DNA from: Thermogutta sp.
GTDB taxonomy: Bacteria > Planctomycetota > Planctomycetia > Pirellulales > Thermoguttaceae
Direction: 5' to 3'
DNA length: 12,295 nucleotides
NCBI GenBank assembly: GCA_012798155.1
Contig: JAAZNR010000363.1
Coordinates: 1-12,295, forward strand
Part shown: one piece after another, positions 2,193 through 11,793 of the stretch
Position numbering within the stretch: position 1 is the first letter of the stretch
Layout of the letters: every line of letters begins with the position of its first letter
The notes under the pieces: generated by a model
What the model was told of the DNA's origin: nothing
Database searches by the model: none
The model's input: only the letters and a program-made list of their open reading frames with translations
Translations under genes and position numbers: made by a program

Positions 2193-3911
2193 TCACTTCG
2201 CCGCGGCGCCGACGGTCGAAACGGGCTGTTCCGGCGGGTACGAAGTCGGCGACTGGCGAGGGCGGTCGAGTTGCCGTTCTTTCCACCATGCGGCCGCCCG
2301 CTCGCGAGTCCACCGTCCCGCGGCCTCGCACCGAGCCAGGGCTTCGCGCAAATCATTCGCCGTCTGGAAGCGATCGCCGGGGTTCTTTTCCAAACAGCGA
2401 AGCACGATCCGGGTCAGGTCCTCAGGCAAATCGGGTCGCAAATCGCGGGGAGAGACGACTTCGGCCTGTATGTGGGCAAGGATCACGCGAATCGGTTTGT
2501 CGGCTTCGAAGGGCGGCCGGCCCGTCAAGGTGAAGTACGCCACCGCCCCCAACGAGTAAATGTCGCTGCGGGGGTCCAAGTCGGTATTGCCCATCGCTTG
2601 CTCGGGCGACATATACAGCGGCGAGCCGGTGACGGAGCCTTCCGCGGTGAGGCTCAAATCCTTCATCTCCGCAATCGGCTTGACCAATCCGAAATCCAGG
2701 ACCTTAACCACGTCGAAGACCCCGCCTCGCTGCGCCACGAAGATATTGGACGGTTTGAGGTCGCGGTGAATGAATCCCAACTCATGGGCCTCGCGGATCG
2801 AGTCGCACGCCTGGCTCAAGAGAAAGATGACCCGCTCGGGCGGAAGCGGACCGAACTCGCGCACCAACGCCCCCAAGTCCAACCCGGGAAGATACTCCAT
2901 GACGTAATAGAACACGCCGTCGCCGGTCAGACCGTAATCGAAAATCTCGACCGTATTCCAATGGGAAAGCCGGGCCGTGGTGCGGACCTCCCGCTCGAAA
3001 CGCGCCAAAGTGCGCGGATCACCCATCCGCTCGGGACGGATCAACTTGACCACGCACGGCCGCTTCAAGAGCACATGCTCCGCCAAATAGACCTCGCCCA
3101 TCCCGCCGCCGCCCAACCGTTCGCGGAGGCGATACTGGCCGAACTGGTGGGCCTCGAACGACTCGCGACGTAAGGATTGGATGGAATCGACGCCCAACAC
3201 CGCCATGATGCCGGAAACGATGAACATCAACGGGATCACCGTCATGTGCTCCATCCGCATGGCCTGCGCGATGTCGGGATGAAACAACCGACCCGCAACG
3301 AGGATCAGAATCGGCACGGCCGCCAGGATTCCGATCACCAGGGCTGCCCGCCGAACCGTATTGGGGATGAACAGGGCATAAGCGAAGATCAACAGCATCC
3401 AGCTTCCGCTGTTGAACTCGAAAAAGCCTCGCTCCTGACAGGAGTGGGCCATGGCGAACCACGAGCCGTAGGCCAAGAATAGGGCCGGGACCGCGAACGC
3501 CGCCAATTCCAGCGAACGGATGGCGCGGTAATTCCCTTGGCATTTCCCCCACGTGAGCCAGGCCCCGGCTCCGATCAGAAACGACGTGCACAGGACATGG
3601 AACGCCAAGTTGTAACGCTCCCAGGCGACATCGGGCTGGAACAGCGGGAGTTGCCAAAGGAGGAATATCGCGAAGGCGGCGGCCATGATCCACACGGCAA
3701 GCCGCAAGCGGCGGTGGAGCACGGCATGAAGCGCGCACGTCCAGTCCTCCGGCGACCCGGAAACCAAGCGAACCGCAGGGCACTTCGGCTCCGCGACCTT
3801 GACGGCGCCTTGCGATGCGGAATCCCCGCCGGCAGCCGTGCTGTCGCGCGGCGCCATGTCGAGCGTGGGTTCATCGCCCGCGGGTCTCAAAGTCGGTGAA
3901 TCGGAGGCCAT
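2193..3911 (-). CDS. Membrane-anchored Ser/Thr protein kinase with N-terminal six-helix domain
   Basis: Hanks-type kinase of about 572 residues. After a polar N-terminus (1-65) come six likely membrane helices near 70-88, 100-121, 136-154, 170-184, 189-207 and 223-241, then a cytoplasmic kinase domain from about 260 to 528. Kinase landmarks are all present: Gly loop LGGGGMGEVY (267-272), Lys289 (VVKLI), helix-C Glu308, HRDLKPSN (catalytic Asp384, Asn389), DFG (406-408) and SPE (435-437), so it should be active. Most bacterial receptor kinases place the kinase first and a single helix after it; here a multi-helix membrane domain comes first and may be the sensor. The ATG at 3911 was chosen because the protein then begins MASDS; a TTG at 4022 would extend it through a hairpin. 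Neither start has a clear ribosome-binding site. Signal and substrates cannot be read from the sequence. Confidence 0.93.
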   Translation of the reverse strand: MASDSPTLRPAGDEPTLDMAPRDSTAAGGDSASQGAVKVAEPKCPAVRLVSGSPEDWTCALHAVLHRRLRLAVWIMAAAFAIFLLWQLPLFQPDVAWERYNLAFHVLCTSFLIGAGAWLTWGKCQGNYRAIRSLELAAFAVPALFLAYGSWFAMAHSCQERGFFEFNSGSWMLLIFAYALFIPNTVRRAALVIGILAAVPILILVAGRLFHPDIAQAMRMEHMTVIPLMFIVSGIMAVLGVDSIQSLRRESFEAHQFGQYRLRERLGGGGMGEVYLAEHVLLKRPCVVKLIRPERMGDPRTLARFEREVRTTARLSHWNTVEIFDYGLTGDGVFYYVMEYLPGLDLGALVREFGPLPPERVIFLLSQACDSIREAHELGFIHRDLKPSNIFVAQRGGVFDVVKVLDFGLVKPIAEMKDLSLTAEGSVTGSPLYMSPEQAMGNTDLDPRSDIYSLGAVAYFTLTGRPPFEADKPIRVILAHIQAEVVSPRDLRPDLPEDLTRIVLRCLEKNPGDRFQTANDLREALARCEAAGRWTRERAAAWWKERQLDRPRQSPTSYPPEQPVSTVGAAAK

Positions 3912-3974
3912 CGGATAGGAAGGAAGGAGTAAGCCTACGTTACGCGAAACCGTCTCCCGTGATTTACGTGAGAT

Positions 3975-4011
3975 TTTCCCGCCCGGTTTCCCAAAACCGG
4001 CGGCAGGGAAA
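3975..4011. other. Bulged stem-loop between bioB and the kinase gene
   Basis: The arms tttccc-gcc-cggttt (3975-3989) and aaaccg-ggc-gggaaa (3994-4011, with a 2-base and a 1-base bulge) can form 15 base pairs around a 4-base loop. It lies about 115 bases past the bioB stop and about 65 bases before the kinase start. It could end bioB transcripts or shape the kinase leader, but it has no following T-run. Confidence 0.45.
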
Positions 4012-4124
4012 TAGCCTGTCAAGTTGGATTCGCCGAACGGCCCCGAATCTTGGCCGCCCCCCGCCTGTTTGGTCTCGGATCCTGTATTTGTGAAAACACG
4101 CTTGGCGCGGCCCGCTTCATGCCC

Positions 4125-5732: not shown

Positions 5733-7052
5733 ATGACAACCAAGCCGGCCACCGATCGGACCACCCAGCATCTTGGAAAATCGATTCTCAGCTCGCCCTT
5801 GATCTGGGGCACGGCAGCCTATCTCTTCTTCCAATGGCTGTTGACTACCCATTTGCCGGGAATCGAGTTCCTCCGCCGCTACACCGCAAGCCATCCCATC
5901 GAGCACGTCGAGACCTATTTGTTCTTCTTCGGCCTCACGTGGCTGGGCATCCGCTTTCTCAACATCTCCGCCCAGCGGCAACGGCTTTCGCGATTGCGAT
6001 TGCCGAAGCGCGTCGTATCCGATGACATCGAGCAGGAGGCTCAGGCCGTCTTGGAATACCTTGAGCGACTCCCGCCGGTCTTCCATGCCGACTACCTGGT
6101 GCAGCGTTGGAAACAGGTACTTCAAATCATTCTTCGCGGCGACCAGTCGCCCGAAGACTACCTCGCCGTACTCAATGAGCAGGACGCTCAGCGGCGGTAT
6201 GGCGCCTACGCGCTCCTCCGGTTGATCGTTTGGGCGGTACCGATCCTCGGTTTCTTGGGAACCGTGGTCGGCATCGCGCTGGCCCTCGGTAACCTGTCGC
6301 CCAGCGAACTGGAAAAGACGCTCCCGCTGGTCATGTCCGGGCTGACGGTGGCTTTCGACACGACGGCCCTGGCGCTGGCTTTGTCCATGATTTTGATGCT
6401 GGCCCAATTCCTCGTGCAGCGATGGGAGGACGGCTTGCTGGATCGCGTCACGCGCCGCACCGAGGAGGAAATCCTGCATCCCTTCGCCGCCAAGAGGGCG
6501 GCCGGTCCCGAAGCCGAGGCCGTCCGGACCGCGCTTTCGCACTGGAGCGACGCCGCCGGGGAATGGGTCCGGCTTTCCGCTCAAGCCTGGGAACAAAGCC
6601 TTCACCGCGTGGAAATCCGCTGGCAAGAGGGCATCCAAGACACCGGCGAGTCCTTCCGCAACGATCTGGGCGCGGCATTGGAGGCCGGCCTCCGCGGTTT
6701 CGCGCGAGAGTTGGCCGAAATCCAAAACGCAAGCTCGGCGGAACGGCTGGAAGAAAGCCGCCGGCGGGAATCCTTGATCGCCGCGCAACTGGACAAGCTC
6801 GAAGAACTGACCCTTCGTTTGAAAGAACAGACGGAGGCCTGGATCTCATTATCCCGGAGCGGAGCGGATCTGCGAAAACTCGAGGAGGCACTGCACCGGA
6901 ACTTGACGGCGGTGGCCTCGGCCAAGCACTTTGAGCAGGCATTGGTAACCCTGGCCGCGGCCGCCAGCCTCTTGAGCGCGCATTTGCAGCGAGAATCCGC
7001 CGAAGAAGCCTTTCGATCGGATGTCATCCGTCCCACGAGCGAGGCCGCATGA
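5733..7052 (+). CDS. MotA/TolQ/ExbB-family ion-channel subunit with coiled-coil tail
   Basis: Proteins of this family form the pentameric inner-membrane stator that passes protons or sodium ions and moves a TolR/ExbD/MotB partner. Four membrane helices are predicted in the 439-residue product: 22-40, 59-78, 161-187 and 199-228, which is MotA-like topology rather than the three of TolQ. The last two carry the family signatures PILGFLGTVVGI (170-181, pore Thr177) and GLTVAFDTTALALALS (203-218, Thr210/Thr211). A mostly helical, Glu/Arg-rich region (about 260-425) follows; by topology it is cytoplasmic and it likely forms a coiled coil. The ATG at 5733 has no clear ribosome-binding site. The stop overlaps the next start (ATGA), so the two are probably translationally coupled. 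The channel assignment is good; the process it powers is unknown. Confidence 0.88.
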   Translation: MTTKPATDRTTQHLGKSILSSPLIWGTAAYLFFQWLLTTHLPGIEFLRRYTASHPIEHVETYLFFFGLTWLGIRFLNISAQRQRLSRLRLPKRVVSDDIEQEAQAVLEYLERLPPVFHADYLVQRWKQVLQIILRGDQSPEDYLAVLNEQDAQRRYGAYALLRLIVWAVPILGFLGTVVGIALALGNLSPSELEKTLPLVMSGLTVAFDTTALALALSMILMLAQFLVQRWEDGLLDRVTRRTEEEILHPFAAKRAAGPEAEAVRTALSHWSDAAGEWVRLSAQAWEQSLHRVEIRWQEGIQDTGESFRNDLGAALEAGLRGFARELAEIQNASSAERLEESRRRESLIAAQLDKLEELTLRLKEQTEAWISLSRSGADLRKLEEALHRNLTAVASAKHFEQALVTLAAAASLLSAHLQRESAEEAFRSDVIRPTSEAA

Positions 7053-8833
7053 GGCGACGCCCCTTCCTCCACTCGATGCACGGGCGGGAGGGCAATCCGG
7101 TATCGCTCTTCCCCTTCTTGGCCGTGCTCATCTGCACGATGGGCACGCTCATTCTGCTATTGGTGGTTTTGGTCCGCCAAGTAAGACTTCAGGTCGAGCA
7201 TCGTCAAGTCGCGCAAGAGGCGACGGCCGAACTCCCTTCCCCTGCCCAATTGGCGCAACTCCGCGAGGATCTGATCTGGCAGCAGGAACAAATCCGAGCG
7301 GCACGGCAGGCCACCCAAGAGCAATTGAACGTCGCCCGCGCCTTGCTCGGACACAGCGAAGAATCGATTCGCCGATTGCGTGCGGAGCTGGCGGCGCTGC
7401 AGAACAAACTGCAATCTCTGGGACATTCCGACCCTGATGCGGACGCGGAATCGTTGCGGGAGCAAGTCCGCGAAACGGAGCGAGAGATCGCCGAGATGGA
7501 ACGGCAACTTGCGGAGCGCGGCAAGCCGACGCCCCAAACGGTGTCTTATGCAGTCGTCCCCTATTTGGGAAAGCACGGCACCGCTCGCCGCCCGATTTAT
7601 CTCGAGTGCCGCGGCGACGCTATCGTCTTGCAGCCGGAGGGGGTGGAGTTCGTGTTGTCCGATTTTCTCGGTCCGCTGGGGCCGGGGAATCCGCTCGACG
7701 CCGCACTCCGCGCGGCCCGGGAATTCCTCGTGCGATCGGGACAAGTCGATCCCACGCGGGACGGCGATACCTACCCGCTGCTGCTGGTCCGCCCGGACGG
7801 AATCGAAGCCTTCTACGCCGCCCGCGCGGCACTGACCTCATGGGGTACCGAGTTCGGCTACGAATTGATCGAAGCGGATTGGACGATCGCGTATCCTCCG
7901 CCCCAGCCGCAATTGGCCGCCGCGGTTCGTGAGGCCGTCGAGACCGCCCGAGAAAGGCAAGAGTTTCTGGTGCGGGCCGCTCCCGGCCGGTACGGAAAGG
8001 GCGCGCCGAAGTATCGCCTCTCCCCCTACATCGGCGGCGCGATGCGAGAGACCGACGGCGGTGATGATGCGACGGAAGACGGCCGCTCGAACGCCGGATC
8101 AGCCGGCTTCTCCGCAGCGGCGGACGCGCATGACGGCAGGTCCGCCGGCGCCGACCCTCTGCCGTCGGACACCGATTCCAGGCCGACCGGGCCGATCGCG
8201 GCAACGCCCCATCCGGCCGTCGGAAACGACTTCGGCGGCATCCCCGACGATACCACCGGACAATCCGCCCGTGGCGGCAGGGGGGCGGAGGACGCCGCCG
8301 GCGGCCAAGAGGTCGCCGCCGGGACTCCAGAGGGCCTCCATTCTCAGCGTGAAAAACCGGCCTTCGGCGCAAGCGGCGGAACTTACAACAGCAGCCTACA
8401 GCCCGGAACTTCCCAAACATCGGCCGAACGGCCGGCCGGCGGCTCCGGCGGTCTCGGCGGCGACCCCGACGTTAAACCCTTGGCGGGCAGTCGCGGTGCC
8501 GGTTGGGCCGTTCCCGACCACGAGCGCTGGGCGATCCCCGTCACCCGGCCCATCCGGGTCGAGTGCTACGCCGATCGCATCGTCTTAGTACCGGAAAAGG
8601 GGCTGGGTCACACCAGGGTCTTCACCTTCGAAGAGGGGCCGGCATCGGCCGTCGATCGTCTGGCTGAGAGCGTGAACGAGTACGTGAAATCTTGGGGAAT
8701 CGCCGGAAACGGGATGTACTGGCGGCCCGTATTGACTGTTCGAACGGCCCCCGACGCCGCACCGGTCTTTCGCAGCTTGCGAATCCTCTTGCAAGACAGC
8801 GGCTTGGAGATCGAGCCGGCCGGGGATCGTTAG
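7049..8833 (+). CDS. TolR/ExbD-like partner lacking the proton-carrying Asp, with two ExbD-like domains
   Basis: This 594-residue protein has one N-terminal membrane helix (about 18-42, SLFPFLAVLICTMGTLILLL), a coiled coil (about 60-158) and two related globular domains at about 180-280 and 498-590. The domains share RPIxxECxxDxIVLxPE (181-197 and 500-516) and a later PxLxVR...L...G.E stretch. Between them is a roughly 160-residue Gly/Ala/Asp/Pro-rich linker with no predicted fold. By topology everything after the helix is outside the inner membrane. It overlaps the channel gene by four bases and precedes a second, Asp-bearing partner. The helix has no acidic residue: where that partner has FLD, this one has FLA. 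I infer a structural or regulatory subunit of the channel complex. The family is not one I can name; ATG 7076 is an alternative start. Confidence 0.85.
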   Translation: MRRRPFLHSMHGREGNPVSLFPFLAVLICTMGTLILLLVVLVRQVRLQVEHRQVAQEATAELPSPAQLAQLREDLIWQQEQIRAARQATQEQLNVARALLGHSEESIRRLRAELAALQNKLQSLGHSDPDADAESLREQVRETEREIAEMERQLAERGKPTPQTVSYAVVPYLGKHGTARRPIYLECRGDAIVLQPEGVEFVLSDFLGPLGPGNPLDAALRAAREFLVRSGQVDPTRDGDTYPLLLVRPDGIEAFYAARAALTSWGTEFGYELIEADWTIAYPPPQPQLAAAVREAVETARERQEFLVRAAPGRYGKGAPKYRLSPYIGGAMRETDGGDDATEDGRSNAGSAGFSAAADAHDGRSAGADPLPSDTDSRPTGPIAATPHPAVGNDFGGIPDDTTGQSARGGRGAEDAAGGQEVAAGTPEGLHSQREKPAFGASGGTYNSSLQPGTSQTSAERPAGGSGGLGGDPDVKPLAGSRGAGWAVPDHERWAIPVTRPIRVECYADRIVLVPEKGLGHTRVFTFEEGPASAVDRLAESVNEYVKSWGIAGNGMYWRPVLTVRTAPDAAPVFRSLRILLQDSGLEIEPAGDR

Positions 8834-8896
8834 TATTCGACGTCGGGCAGCGCATACTGCCGCCCGCATGATGGCGACGCGCCAATCGCAACAGCC

Positions 8897-8904
8897 GAGG
8901 AAGG
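8897..8904 (+). promoter_or_regulatory. Ribosome-binding site deciding the start of the third operon gene
   Basis: GAGGAAGG lies 5 bases before the ATG at 8910, a normal Shine-Dalgarno distance. The upstream ATG pair at 8868 and 8871 has only cgcccgc-type sequence in front of it. This favours 8910 as the true start. Confidence 0.6.
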
Positions 8905-8909
8905 CACGG

Positions 8910-9935
8910 ATGCAGGCTCCGGAACAAGAGCAGGAACTGACCGCCGGTTACGACTCCTTTTTGGACATCGTGACGAACATCGTCGGCATTCTGATCATCT
9001 TGGTGATGGTCGTGGGAGTTCGTGCCTCCAAGCTCCCTCCGGCCTCGCCTCCAACCGAAAACCTCCCGGAACGATACGCTCGCGACATCGAGGAGCTTCG
9101 TCGCCAAAAAGACGCCGTGGAATCGCTGCGAACGGACGTACTGCGGATCCATGAGGCGATCCGGCAGGTGGAACTCGACCGCGCGGCGCGGGAGTTCGAA
9201 CGCCGCAATCTGGCCGGCTTGGTCGCTCAGCTCGGCAAGGCGATTCAGGAACGGGCGGCCCAAGCCTCCGAGCGGGAACGGGAATTGATGAACCTGCAAA
9301 CCCAACTAGCCCGGTCGCGAAGCCGAGCCGACCAATTGCGCCGTGAACTGGAAGCAAGTGCGAGCATCAACACCGACAGCGTCGTGACGCTGGTCAATTA
9401 CCCGACTCCACTCAGCGTCCCCGCCGATGGGGAGGAGCTGCACTTTCAAATCCGTAACGGCCGCGTGGCGCACATCCCTTTGGACCGCCTGCTCAAGGAA
9501 CTCGTCGCCGACGCCAAACAAAAAATCTACCGCCTGCTGGAGGTCCCGGAGGTCTCCGGCACGGTCGGACCGCTGGGCGGTTACCGGCTGCAATACGTCC
9601 TGGCGCGGCGCAACGTCCGCATCGAGGACCCCGGAGGCGACGGCGTCCAAGGAGCCATGGTGCAACTGAGGCGCTGGGTCTTGCAGCCCGTCGCGGACGT
9701 CGGCGACCCGGCCGAAAAGGCACTCGACGATACTTCGGAGTTCCGCCGACGCCTCGCCGGCTATCAGCCCGAGAAGACGATCGTCACGATCTGGTGCTAC
9801 CCGGACGGCTTCGCCGACTTTCGCAGGCTCCGAGATTACCTCCATCAGGAGGGCTTCAGCGTGGCCGGCCGCCCTCTCCCCGATGGTTATCCCATCACGG
9901 GTTCGCCCAACGGTTCCAAGTCGGCGGCGCAATGA
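8910..9935 (+). CDS. TolR/ExbD/MotB-like partner with conserved membrane Asp
   Basis: From the ATG at 8910 the product has 341 residues; starting at 8868 would add 14. A short cytoplasmic N-terminus leads into one membrane helix (about 17-37, FLDIVTNIVGILIILVMVVG). Asp19 is at its mouth, matching the proton-binding Asp of TolR/ExbD/MotB. A long Arg/Glu-rich coiled coil (about 52-151) follows, then a globular domain (about 158-326). In this domain HFQIRNGRVAHIP and IVTIWCYPDGFADFRRLRDY resemble the strand-strand and strand-helix pieces of the repeated domain in the previous gene. It follows that gene by 76 bases (34 from the alternative start) in the same direction, so it is almost certainly the third gene of the operon. 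It is the best candidate for the ion-translocating partner of the channel subunit. Confidence 0.87.
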   Translation: MQAPEQEQELTAGYDSFLDIVTNIVGILIILVMVVGVRASKLPPASPPTENLPERYARDIEELRRQKDAVESLRTDVLRIHEAIRQVELDRAAREFERRNLAGLVAQLGKAIQERAAQASERERELMNLQTQLARSRSRADQLRRELEASASINTDSVVTLVNYPTPLSVPADGEELHFQIRNGRVAHIPLDRLLKELVADAKQKIYRLLEVPEVSGTVGPLGGYRLQYVLARRNVRIEDPGGDGVQGAMVQLRRWVLQPVADVGDPAEKALDDTSEFRRRLAGYQPEKTIVTIWCYPDGFADFRRLRDYLHQEGFSVAGRPLPDGYPITGSPNGSKSAAQ

Positions 9936-10190: not shown

Positions 10191-10364
10191 TCTGACTGGA
10201 CTTTTGCAAATTGTGGTGACAAGTTCTCGTCCGCCTTGGAAGAGGGTTATGGTGAGGGCAATTAGCCGCGAAAACGGCTTGCCGTGATTGCCCAACTTCA
10301 CCAAGCCCTCGCCCGCTGCCCCTCTCAGAGGGAGAGGGGAGCAGTTTGCAAAAGTCCAGTTCTG
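10191..10364. mobile_element. MITE-like element with 16-bp terminal inverted repeats
   Basis: actggacttttgcaaa (10195-10210) is perfectly inverted as tttgcaaaagtccagt (10345-10360), giving a 166-bp element. The bases immediately outside are tctg on both sides (10191-10194 and 10361-10364), a candidate 4-bp target duplication. Inside are further palindromes: ggtga-gggcaat with attgccc-tcacc (around 10250-10310), and cccctctc/gagagggg just before the right end. It encodes nothing, so any movement would need a transposase supplied from elsewhere. The gcttct/agaagc flanks may extend the inverted repeat instead of marking a duplication. Confidence 0.55.
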
Positions 10365-10455: not shown

Positions 10456-11793
10456 ATGAGATTCCTAACTTGTTGCCTCGCGACGCTGACGCTGTTTTTG
10501 GCCCTGCCTTGCGCGGCTGCGGAGCAAGGTCGCCAAGGTCCGCCTCGTAACGTCATCCTGTTCGGATGGGACGGCGCACAGCGTGCCCACGTGCAGGAGT
10601 GCTTGCAGCGGGGCGAGTTGCCGACCCTGAAGCAGCTCAGCGAAGAGGGTGCGTTGGTAAACATCGATGTCATCACGGGGGCTACCGACACGAAAGCCGG
10701 CTGGACGCAGATTCTCACCGGCTATCACCCCCAGGTTACCGGCGTTTACAACAACGGCCAATTTCGCGACGTCCCTCAAGGACTGAGCGTCTTCGAACGG
10801 CTCAAAGCACAATTCGGTCCCGACTTCGTTTGCGCCGCCGTGATCGGCAAAAGGGAGCACTGCGGCGAAATCCGCGAGCCTTTTAAGCGCAAACTGACGG
10901 ATGAGGAGGCCGCCCGGATTGAAGAGGAGATGCAACAGCAACAGGAGCGTCGGCGGCAGCAGCGCCGGACGGCGCAAAGCGGTCAAGCGAAACCGGCGGC
11001 CGCTCCGGCACCCGCTCAGCCGGGGACTCAACCTCGTGCCGGCGCCGGGCGCCGCGGCGCGGCGGGAAAACCCGCTCAGCCCGGCGCCGGTCGCCAGGTC
11101 ATCGGCCGAATCGTCGAGGAAAACGGCGAGAAGTATTTGGTGTTCGAAGGCTCGCCGTACTACACCATGCACCAGGCCTGCGACGTTTGGGAGTACGGCT
11201 TGATGGAGGACGAGAAGGTCGGCACACGGGCCCTGGAACTGCTGGAGAAGTACAAGGATAAGCCTTTCTTCTTCTTCGTCCATTTCGCGTCGGTGGATCA
11301 CGACGGCCACCGCTACGGCGAGAACTCGAAGGAATACAATGACGCCTTGATTTCCAACGATGAGTGGACGGGCAAAATCATCGCGAAGCTCAAGGAGTTG
11401 GGCCTGTACGACCAAACGCTGGTCTATGTGACGGCCGATCACGGCTTCGACGAAGGCAAGACCTCGCACGCCTACGCGCCCTATATCTTTTTGGGCACGA
11501 ACGATCCCCTGGTCCGGCGCGACGGCATGCGGCAGGATATCGCCCCGACGATCCTGGCCCGCTTCGGCGTCGATCTCAGCGGACTACAGCCGCCGTTGGA
11601 CGGCGAACCGTTGACGCAGCCGGCGACCAAGCCGGTGCAAAAGGCGCCCGAGACCAAGCCCGTCGCGAAGGGGCCGAAAACCCCGAAAAAGCCCGGCCCG
11701 GCCGCATCGGGCGGTAAAGCCGCCCAACCCAAACAGGGCGCCAAGAATCCACGCAAAGCAGGCGAAGCCGCCGCTCAGCCCGCCGTCAAGTGA
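10456..11793 (+). CDS. Secreted alkaline-phosphatase-superfamily hydrolase (phosphodiesterase/phosphatase-like)
   Basis: The 445-residue product starts with a Sec signal peptide (1-22, cleavage near AAA-EQ), so it is exported. The metal ligands of the superfamily are in order: Asp39 (FGWDG), probable nucleophile Thr84 (GWTQILTGYHP), Asp281 and His285 (VDHDGHRYG), Asp328-His329 (TADHGFDEG) and His338 (SHAY). This matches two-metal phosphodiesterases/nucleotide pyrophosphatases and phosphatases better than sulfatases, because the Cys/Ser of sulfatases is replaced by Thr. Two additions are odd: a Gln/Arg then Ala/Pro/Gly-rich insert (about 150-215) inside the catalytic domain, and a basic Lys/Pro/Ala tail (about 386-445) that looks disordered. 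The substrate is not predictable. It is probably a single-gene unit, with a stem-loop 44 bases after the stop. Confidence 0.88.
   Translation: MRFLTCCLATLTLFLALPCAAAEQGRQGPPRNVILFGWDGAQRAHVQECLQRGELPTLKQLSEEGALVNIDVITGATDTKAGWTQILTGYHPQVTGVYNNGQFRDVPQGLSVFERLKAQFGPDFVCAAVIGKREHCGEIREPFKRKLTDEEAARIEEEMQQQQERRRQQRRTAQSGQAKPAAAPAPAQPGTQPRAGAGRRGAAGKPAQPGAGRQVIGRIVEENGEKYLVFEGSPYYTMHQACDVWEYGLMEDEKVGTRALELLEKYKDKPFFFFVHFASVDHDGHRYGENSKEYNDALISNDEWTGKIIAKLKELGLYDQTLVYVTADHGFDEGKTSHAYAPYIFLGTNDPLVRRDGMRQDIAPTILARFGVDLSGLQPPLDGEPLTQPATKPVQKAPETKPVAKGPKTPKKPGPAASGGKAAQPKQGAKNPRKAGEAAAQPAVK

Follow-up and report, generated by a model that had tools for sequence, protein, structure and literature searches.

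The stretch of Thermogutta DNA analysed here (12,295 nt, hereafter the window) contains three open reading frames (ORFs), A, B and C, that run in the same direction on the plus strand. A sequence-only reading had described them as three co-directional genes, the first two overlapping by ATGA, and the coordinates, strand and overlap are all confirmed. Gene A (5733..7052) encodes a 439-aa channel subunit of the MotA/TolQ/ExbB family, assigned by a PF01618 match and with at least 120 relatives. Gene B (7049..8833) encodes a 594-aa protein that its sequence rows and AlphaFold2 model present as a shaft protein without an ion-carrying Asp, and gene C (8910..9935) a 341-aa shaft protein that bears an Asp. 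The ATGA shared by the end of A and the start of B lies within GCATGAGG, and the spacing of -4 recurs in 50 of the 62 public loci that yielded both genes. The ORF of C was listed from 8868, but its start is probably at 8910, because the listed relatives (326-349 aa in 118 of 120) and the window's own database copy (341 aa) fit a length of 341 aa; the gap between B and C is 34 bases for the listed ORF, or 76 with the later start.

Upstream of A, on the minus strand, a Pfam scan of the window proteins identifies leuC-like, Ser/Thr kinase-like and bioB-like genes; a phosphodiesterase-like gene follows C, and the remaining neighbour is one partial ORF with no Pfam match. The scan, covering eight proteins, finds no OmpA-type domain, TonB/TolA, nuclease or helicase, so that the absence of these from the vicinity, as first read, holds for the proteins scanned. 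TPR and vWA domains are likewise absent by Pfam from the window proteins, at this one locus, as are Agl/Glt genes, and none of the Zorya effectors ZorC, ZorD and ZorE adjoins A-B-C in the window by Pfam, the PADLOC search having covered A, B and C. The kinase-like protein (2193-4022) has a hydrophobic N-terminal part, maybe a membrane domain, and the protein at 10456-11793, phosphodiesterase/sulfatase-like, has an insert rich in Ala, Gln and Pro. Between C and the latter, some 166 bases at 10195-10360 are flanked by 19-nt inverted repeats with 95% complementarity. With 40 of 105 candidate copies scored, this element occupies at least 40 places in its own genome including the window copy, the other 39 at 93-97% identity, and it is a high-copy, MITE-like element.

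Protein A matches PF01618 over residues 154-233 with 43.8 bits against a curated cut-off of 22.9. Its four helices were assigned by eye from the sequence, and the pore helices (6219..6413, residues 163-227) carry the motifs WAxPILGFLGTVVGI and GLxVAFDTTALAL. Within these, T177 is kept in all 178 rows that have a letter there, T210 and T211 both in all 179; by motif, the three are the putative ring residues of the pore. A had been read as a channel subunit with the family pore motifs, and the profile score and conserved Thr residues bear this out. The cytoplasmic tail (6435..7049, residues 235-439) is 205 aa long with only 3 Pro, is probably helical, and varies little in length across relatives (median 207, quartiles 205-208).

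The AlphaFold2 model of B has one N-terminal helix, a long coiled coil and then tandem alpha/beta domains. The membrane helix (7100..7183, residues 18-45, SLFPFLAVLICTMG) has Ala at residue 25 (A25, 7121-7123), the site of the Asp in C. The coiled coil (7241..7522, residues 65-158) is modelled as helices H65-126 and H129-158. Domain 1 (7592..7867, residues 182-273) has the order beta-beta-beta-alpha-beta-alpha-beta in the model and stands at a steady distance from the membrane helix among relatives (median 136, quartiles 136-139). A disordered linker (8057..8461, residues 337-471, pLDDT <50), rich in G, S, A and P, leads to domain 2 (8549..8818, residues 501-590), which matches domain 1 by HHalign (P 91). 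Linker length ranges from 54 to 400 among relatives.

Protein C is likewise modelled as an N-terminal helix, a long coiled coil and an alpha/beta domain. Its membrane helix (8952..9029, residues 15-40, DSFLDIVTNIVGILIILVMV) contains D19 (8964-8966), and the coiled coil occupies residues 54-151 of the model (9069..9362). The alpha/beta domain (9432..9902, residues 175-331) has an inserted beta-meander, and the chain ends in a conserved tail, GSPNGSKSAAQ (9900..9932, residues 331-341). The spacing from helix to domain is close to constant in relatives (median 121, 5-95% range 118-128). The proposed layout of a single helix, a coiled coil and a globular domain thus fits C, with its one domain, and fits B up to the coiled coil, after which B has two domains in tandem.

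The Pfam, NCBIfam and PADLOC libraries searched offer no family name for B or C. Neither reaches a cut-off in Pfam or NCBIfam, and their weak matches there and in PADLOC fall on the coiled coil (in Pfam, mostly so). PF02472 (ExbD/TolR) gives no match to either at E up to 1; in a PF02472-type search of the window's own genome, contigs C536 and C878 alone were matched. Searches of PDB sequences with the B and C profiles returned coiled coils, and HHalign comparison of the helices and domains of the window-family B and C with ExbD gave E values of 0.01-0.18, not significant. For both monomer models pTM is low (0.40 and 0.52), and comparison with PDB folds gives no match that stands out, the VIA rows being middling; for B, Foldseek finds no PDB match at E <= 0.001. 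The domain order of B is similar to that of ExbD in a structure comparison, a tied result from a low-pTM model. In C, SFLD(I/V) resembles the P-L-I-D-V of ExbD, with a profile comparison that is not significant. The description of B and C as TolR/ExbD-like partners has to be qualified, in that PF02472 matches neither, B lacks the Asp and B has two domains.

At E <= 0.001, 452 protein relatives of A, 1471 of B and 1113 of C were found among 8000 candidates scored for each, and 120 of each were listed. A scan of GTDB genome contigs gave 357 relatives of C, from which the best 80 loci, all planctomycete, were taken. A was found in 62 and B in 75 of these 80, many contigs being too short; where the contig extends more than 4.5 kb upstream of C, which is so at 52 loci, A lies upstream in 48 and B in 50, in the same order, as the check proposed with the sequence-only reading had looked for. 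Two of the 52 have neither A nor B upstream (L034, L062) and two have B without A (L019, L064). A was searched for in seven genomes (L019, L064, L071, L025, L060, L034 and L062) and found in six, at the locus or on another contig; it was not found in the L019 genome.

C is present in 238 of 297 sampled genomes of the class, and in 214 of the 260 that are of good quality. Within the window's order, 81 of the 82 genomes sampled gave a match with an E value no higher than 8e-46, a hand count that assumes listing by kinship, 39 genomes without a match being outside the rows listed; in the single miss, G436, A and B lie at the cut end of a contig. Among the 20 listed class genomes without C, B is lacking in 16, partially matched in two (G314, G317), weakly matched in G257 and, in G436, cut, while 19 have an A-like match, distant except in G436. 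A phylum-wide sample gave C matches in 21 of 246 genomes, the 15 strong matches coming without exception from the class.

When the 80 loci were searched for an effector among the neighbours, no neighbour cluster occurred in more than 12; ORFs under 90 aa were dropped, genes were called as longest ORFs, and some clusters are antisense artefacts. In 12 of 44 eligible loci (L009, L011, L043 and others) a co-directional QueD gene, often accompanied by QueC, precedes A by no more than 2.5 kb; we take this neighbourhood as one of position and not of function.

Taken with the profile searches, in which B and C rise above cut-off in no unrelated family, as the original reading anticipated, the co-occurrence of A-B-C in order marks a real, widely kept and unnamed three-gene set and gives good support to a machine of the MotA/TolQ/ExbB type.

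The membrane helices of B and C are homologous (HHalign P 86.7, E 4e-6), and the alignment places A25 of B on D19 of C. All 199 rows of C that have a residue at this site have Asp. Site 25 of B is Ala in 176 rows, Val in five, Asp in four and Ser in one, so that 182 of 186 are not Asp. The rows, which combine database relatives, genome loci and the window, are partly redundant, and gap rows (10 for B, 2 for C, up to 5 for A) are left out of the fractions. Since C has no significant match to ExbD, D19 is called a putative ion site from its position, its invariance and the adjoining channel. Ordinary ExbD ORFs taken from the window's own genome and from relatives of the same order served as a control, and 41 of 41 have the Asp, which in eight tandem pairs is present on both members. 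Two of the 41 duplicate a single contig (L107 and L129), leaving 39 distinct, and the control profile is biased, its 15 seeds having been picked by a motif that contains Asp. D209 of A was considered as a stand-in for the missing Asp of B and was rejected, since B can have Ala when residue 209 of A is Asn, Ala or Gly.

The four B rows with Asp at site 25 come from L019, L025, L064 and L071. In the three of these genomes where A was found, it is divergent, GTVxGI being changed to GTV(V/L)HF and AFDTT to AFNTT, as would be expected of a pore-facing site 25 in B. Asp-type B and the changed channel are confined to one clade and so count as one event; the channel of this clade falls inside type I in the tree described below, with weak support. 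The divergent channels L144, L145 and L146, in genomes with Asp-type B, have His after GTV(V/L).

The genome to which the window belongs has other motor genes, with MotAB-like genes, a MotA-like one among them, on contig C204 and two sets of ExbB with a double ExbD on C536 and C878, so that A-B-C would be an extra machine. In a tree of 36 rows with a weak backbone, A groups apart from the MotAB-like and ExbB sets (midpoint root, long outgroup branches); L099, without the cutting motif, and L147, where no channel ORF was found, were left out.

Two related kinds of set were found in Planctomycetota. Both share the gene order of the window. Type II has Ser at the B site in 6 of 6 and Asp in C in 7 of 7; its A, B and C are homologous to those of the window by HHalign, with P 95.7 to 98.6 for the domains of B and C and for their helices. 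It differs in a zinc-ribbon-like start on A and in having one domain in B where the window's B has two; strong matches to it occur at 11 places in 10 of the 246 genomes. By eye, the type II channels L095, L096, L097, L098, L103 and L110 start with a zinc-ribbon-like CxxC...CPYC. Type III has Asp in both partners, at four loci where both were seen (L094, L148, L166, L167). An Asp in both partners therefore exists in related sets, and the uneven state belongs to types I and II. One type III set (L094) is on contig C185 of the window's own genome, where the channel and its two Asp partners are followed by an ORF with a GYF-like start, by eye.

We consider it on balance probable that the three proteins make up a single ion-driven motor of the MotA/TolQ/ExbB kind, with a B-C axle and the Asp on C only. 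For this predicted motor we infer the ring number, the B-C pairing, the ion, rotation, the target and the job. Five A subunits would form a ring in the inner membrane, and one B and one C helix would form the axle within its pore, a plausible 5:1:1 stoichiometry. Ion uptake and release would be the work of a single Asp, that of C. Above the membrane, the coiled coils of B and C, of about 95 residues each (roughly 14-15 nm), would make a shaft into the periplasm ending in alpha/beta domains, B adding a second such domain on its flexible linker. The coils of both are fixed in length among relatives, unlike the variable linker of B. The shaft itself would hand force to the cell wall or the outer membrane, which would make a TonB or TolA unnecessary.

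The job is probably envelope housekeeping, perhaps Tol-like. The set is near-universal in its order, vertically kept and free of effectors, and it occurs in bacteria without TolB, which together suggest such a role. TolB_N was found in 0 of 20 relatives, against 3 positives among the 14 named genomes of the control; TonB_C was found in 5 of 20 relatives. For the same reasons of near-universality and missing TolB_N, and because B and C are unnamed in the libraries searched, A-B-C is a candidate missing piece of planctomycete envelope biology. As to essentiality, MotA, TolQ, ExbB, Tol-Pal and biopolymer are not mentioned in the main text of PMC10632474, a source of Planctopirus limnophila transposon data, and the terms looked for were likewise absent from PMC12283558. 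The picture in all its parts, with an axle of one B and one C inside five A, only one Asp to carry ions and hence five ions per turn, a self-transducing shaft and an essential Tol-like job across Planctomycetia, is offered tentatively and is doubtful as a whole.

The same proteins could be arranged otherwise. The axle might be a C homodimer (A5C2), with B a peripheral force transducer in the manner of TonB or TolA whose linker and domain 2 reach the outer membrane. The missing Asp of B would agree with this, and the succession of helix, coil, domain, flexible linker and domain suits a tether. The helix of B is, however, homologous to that of C, its coil length is fixed as in C, and it has Asp at site 25 in four genomes, three of which yielded an A, each time with the changed channel; by eye it also has no His of the SHLS kind described for transducers in the part of PMC12204202 consulted. 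These points make the arrangement rather unlikely in our judgement. Separate A5B2 and A5C2 rings, with the B ring passive or regulatory, have been discussed for AglRQ and AglRS, and the parts of PMC9389320 consulted describe the pairing of these two unlike axle proteins, AglQ and AglS, as hetero- or homodimers, as unsettled. Here, though, an A5B2 ring would be without any Asp for 182 of 186 B rows, and the locus has one A gene, then one B and one C, so that we think two rings improbable.

Two further readings would give the genes a familiar identity. The best curated matches of A, all weak, include ZorA2 (PADLOC, E 7e-8), and the A profile matches the solved type II ZorA 8vvi, tail included (E 0.002), as a Zorya-like anti-phage system with its effectors missing might do. 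The scores of A on the curated ZorA profiles are nevertheless far below the cut-offs (19.6 of 700 bits for NF041792, 14.4 of 100 for NF033915), B and C have no OmpA-type domain, and no effector is found among the scanned window genes. Defence systems have a patchy distribution, unlike A-B-C, which is near-universal in its order, and we give this reading very little weight. An ordinary flagellar, Ton or Tol stator set would belong to the same superfamily, but the genome has separate sets of these kinds on C204, C536 and C878, and A stands apart from them in the tree, subject to its midpoint root and long branches; this seems to us the least credible of the alternatives.

The one-motor reading with the uneven B-C axle can be set beside the systems already described. 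Flagellar MotAB differs in that the OmpA-type domain of MotB is absent, by Pfam, from B and C. With ExbBD/TonB and TolQRA the set has in common the channel family of A, the Asp site in C and, as a tied result, the domain order of B and ExbD; it differs in the lack of an adjoining TonB or TolA, in its two unlike shafts with long coils and in the 205-residue tail of A. Ordinary ExbD pairs of the clade have Asp in both members, whereas the window's B has none. Zorya ZorAB also has a MotA-type ring protein with a long cytoplasmic tail, but ZorB keeps the Asp and binds peptidoglycan through a dedicated domain, in the account given in the sections of PMC11890865 consulted, and neither B nor C combines the two. 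GldLM likewise has a shaft that reaches far into the periplasm (18 nm in GldM) and may pass on force directly, as described in part of PMC9389320; GldM, in contrast, is a homodimer, and the likeness is one of description.

AglRQS, as presented in the same part of PMC9389320, resembles A-B-C in joining one channel to two MotB/TolR-like partners, but AglQ and AglS are both said to carry the Asp, which B does not, and Agl/Glt genes are absent from the window. Current models of 5:2 motors have 10 ions per turn, and five would need an entirely new model (PMC9389320, same part). A natural one-Asp axle, if true, would make the questions of ions per turn and of unlike axle pairing testable.

In the literature searched, with subscription papers and preprints outside its scope, no description of the A-B-C set was found, and a survey of MotA relatives mentions, in the portion consulted, other proteins of unknown function (PMC12505986). 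The suggestion that the system is undescribed holds for the set itself and has to be narrowed in one respect, since published PVC clusters combine a tolQ-like gene with two unlike tolR-like genes, a TPR gene and a vWA transducer (PMC12204202, in the part consulted). These clusters come from the same superphylum and likewise pair one channel gene with two unlike single-helix partners, but the window proteins have no TPR or vWA domain and B and C do not match PF02472. A channel with two unlike TolR-like partners is thus already published for PVC bacteria, and the uneven shaft is the new point.
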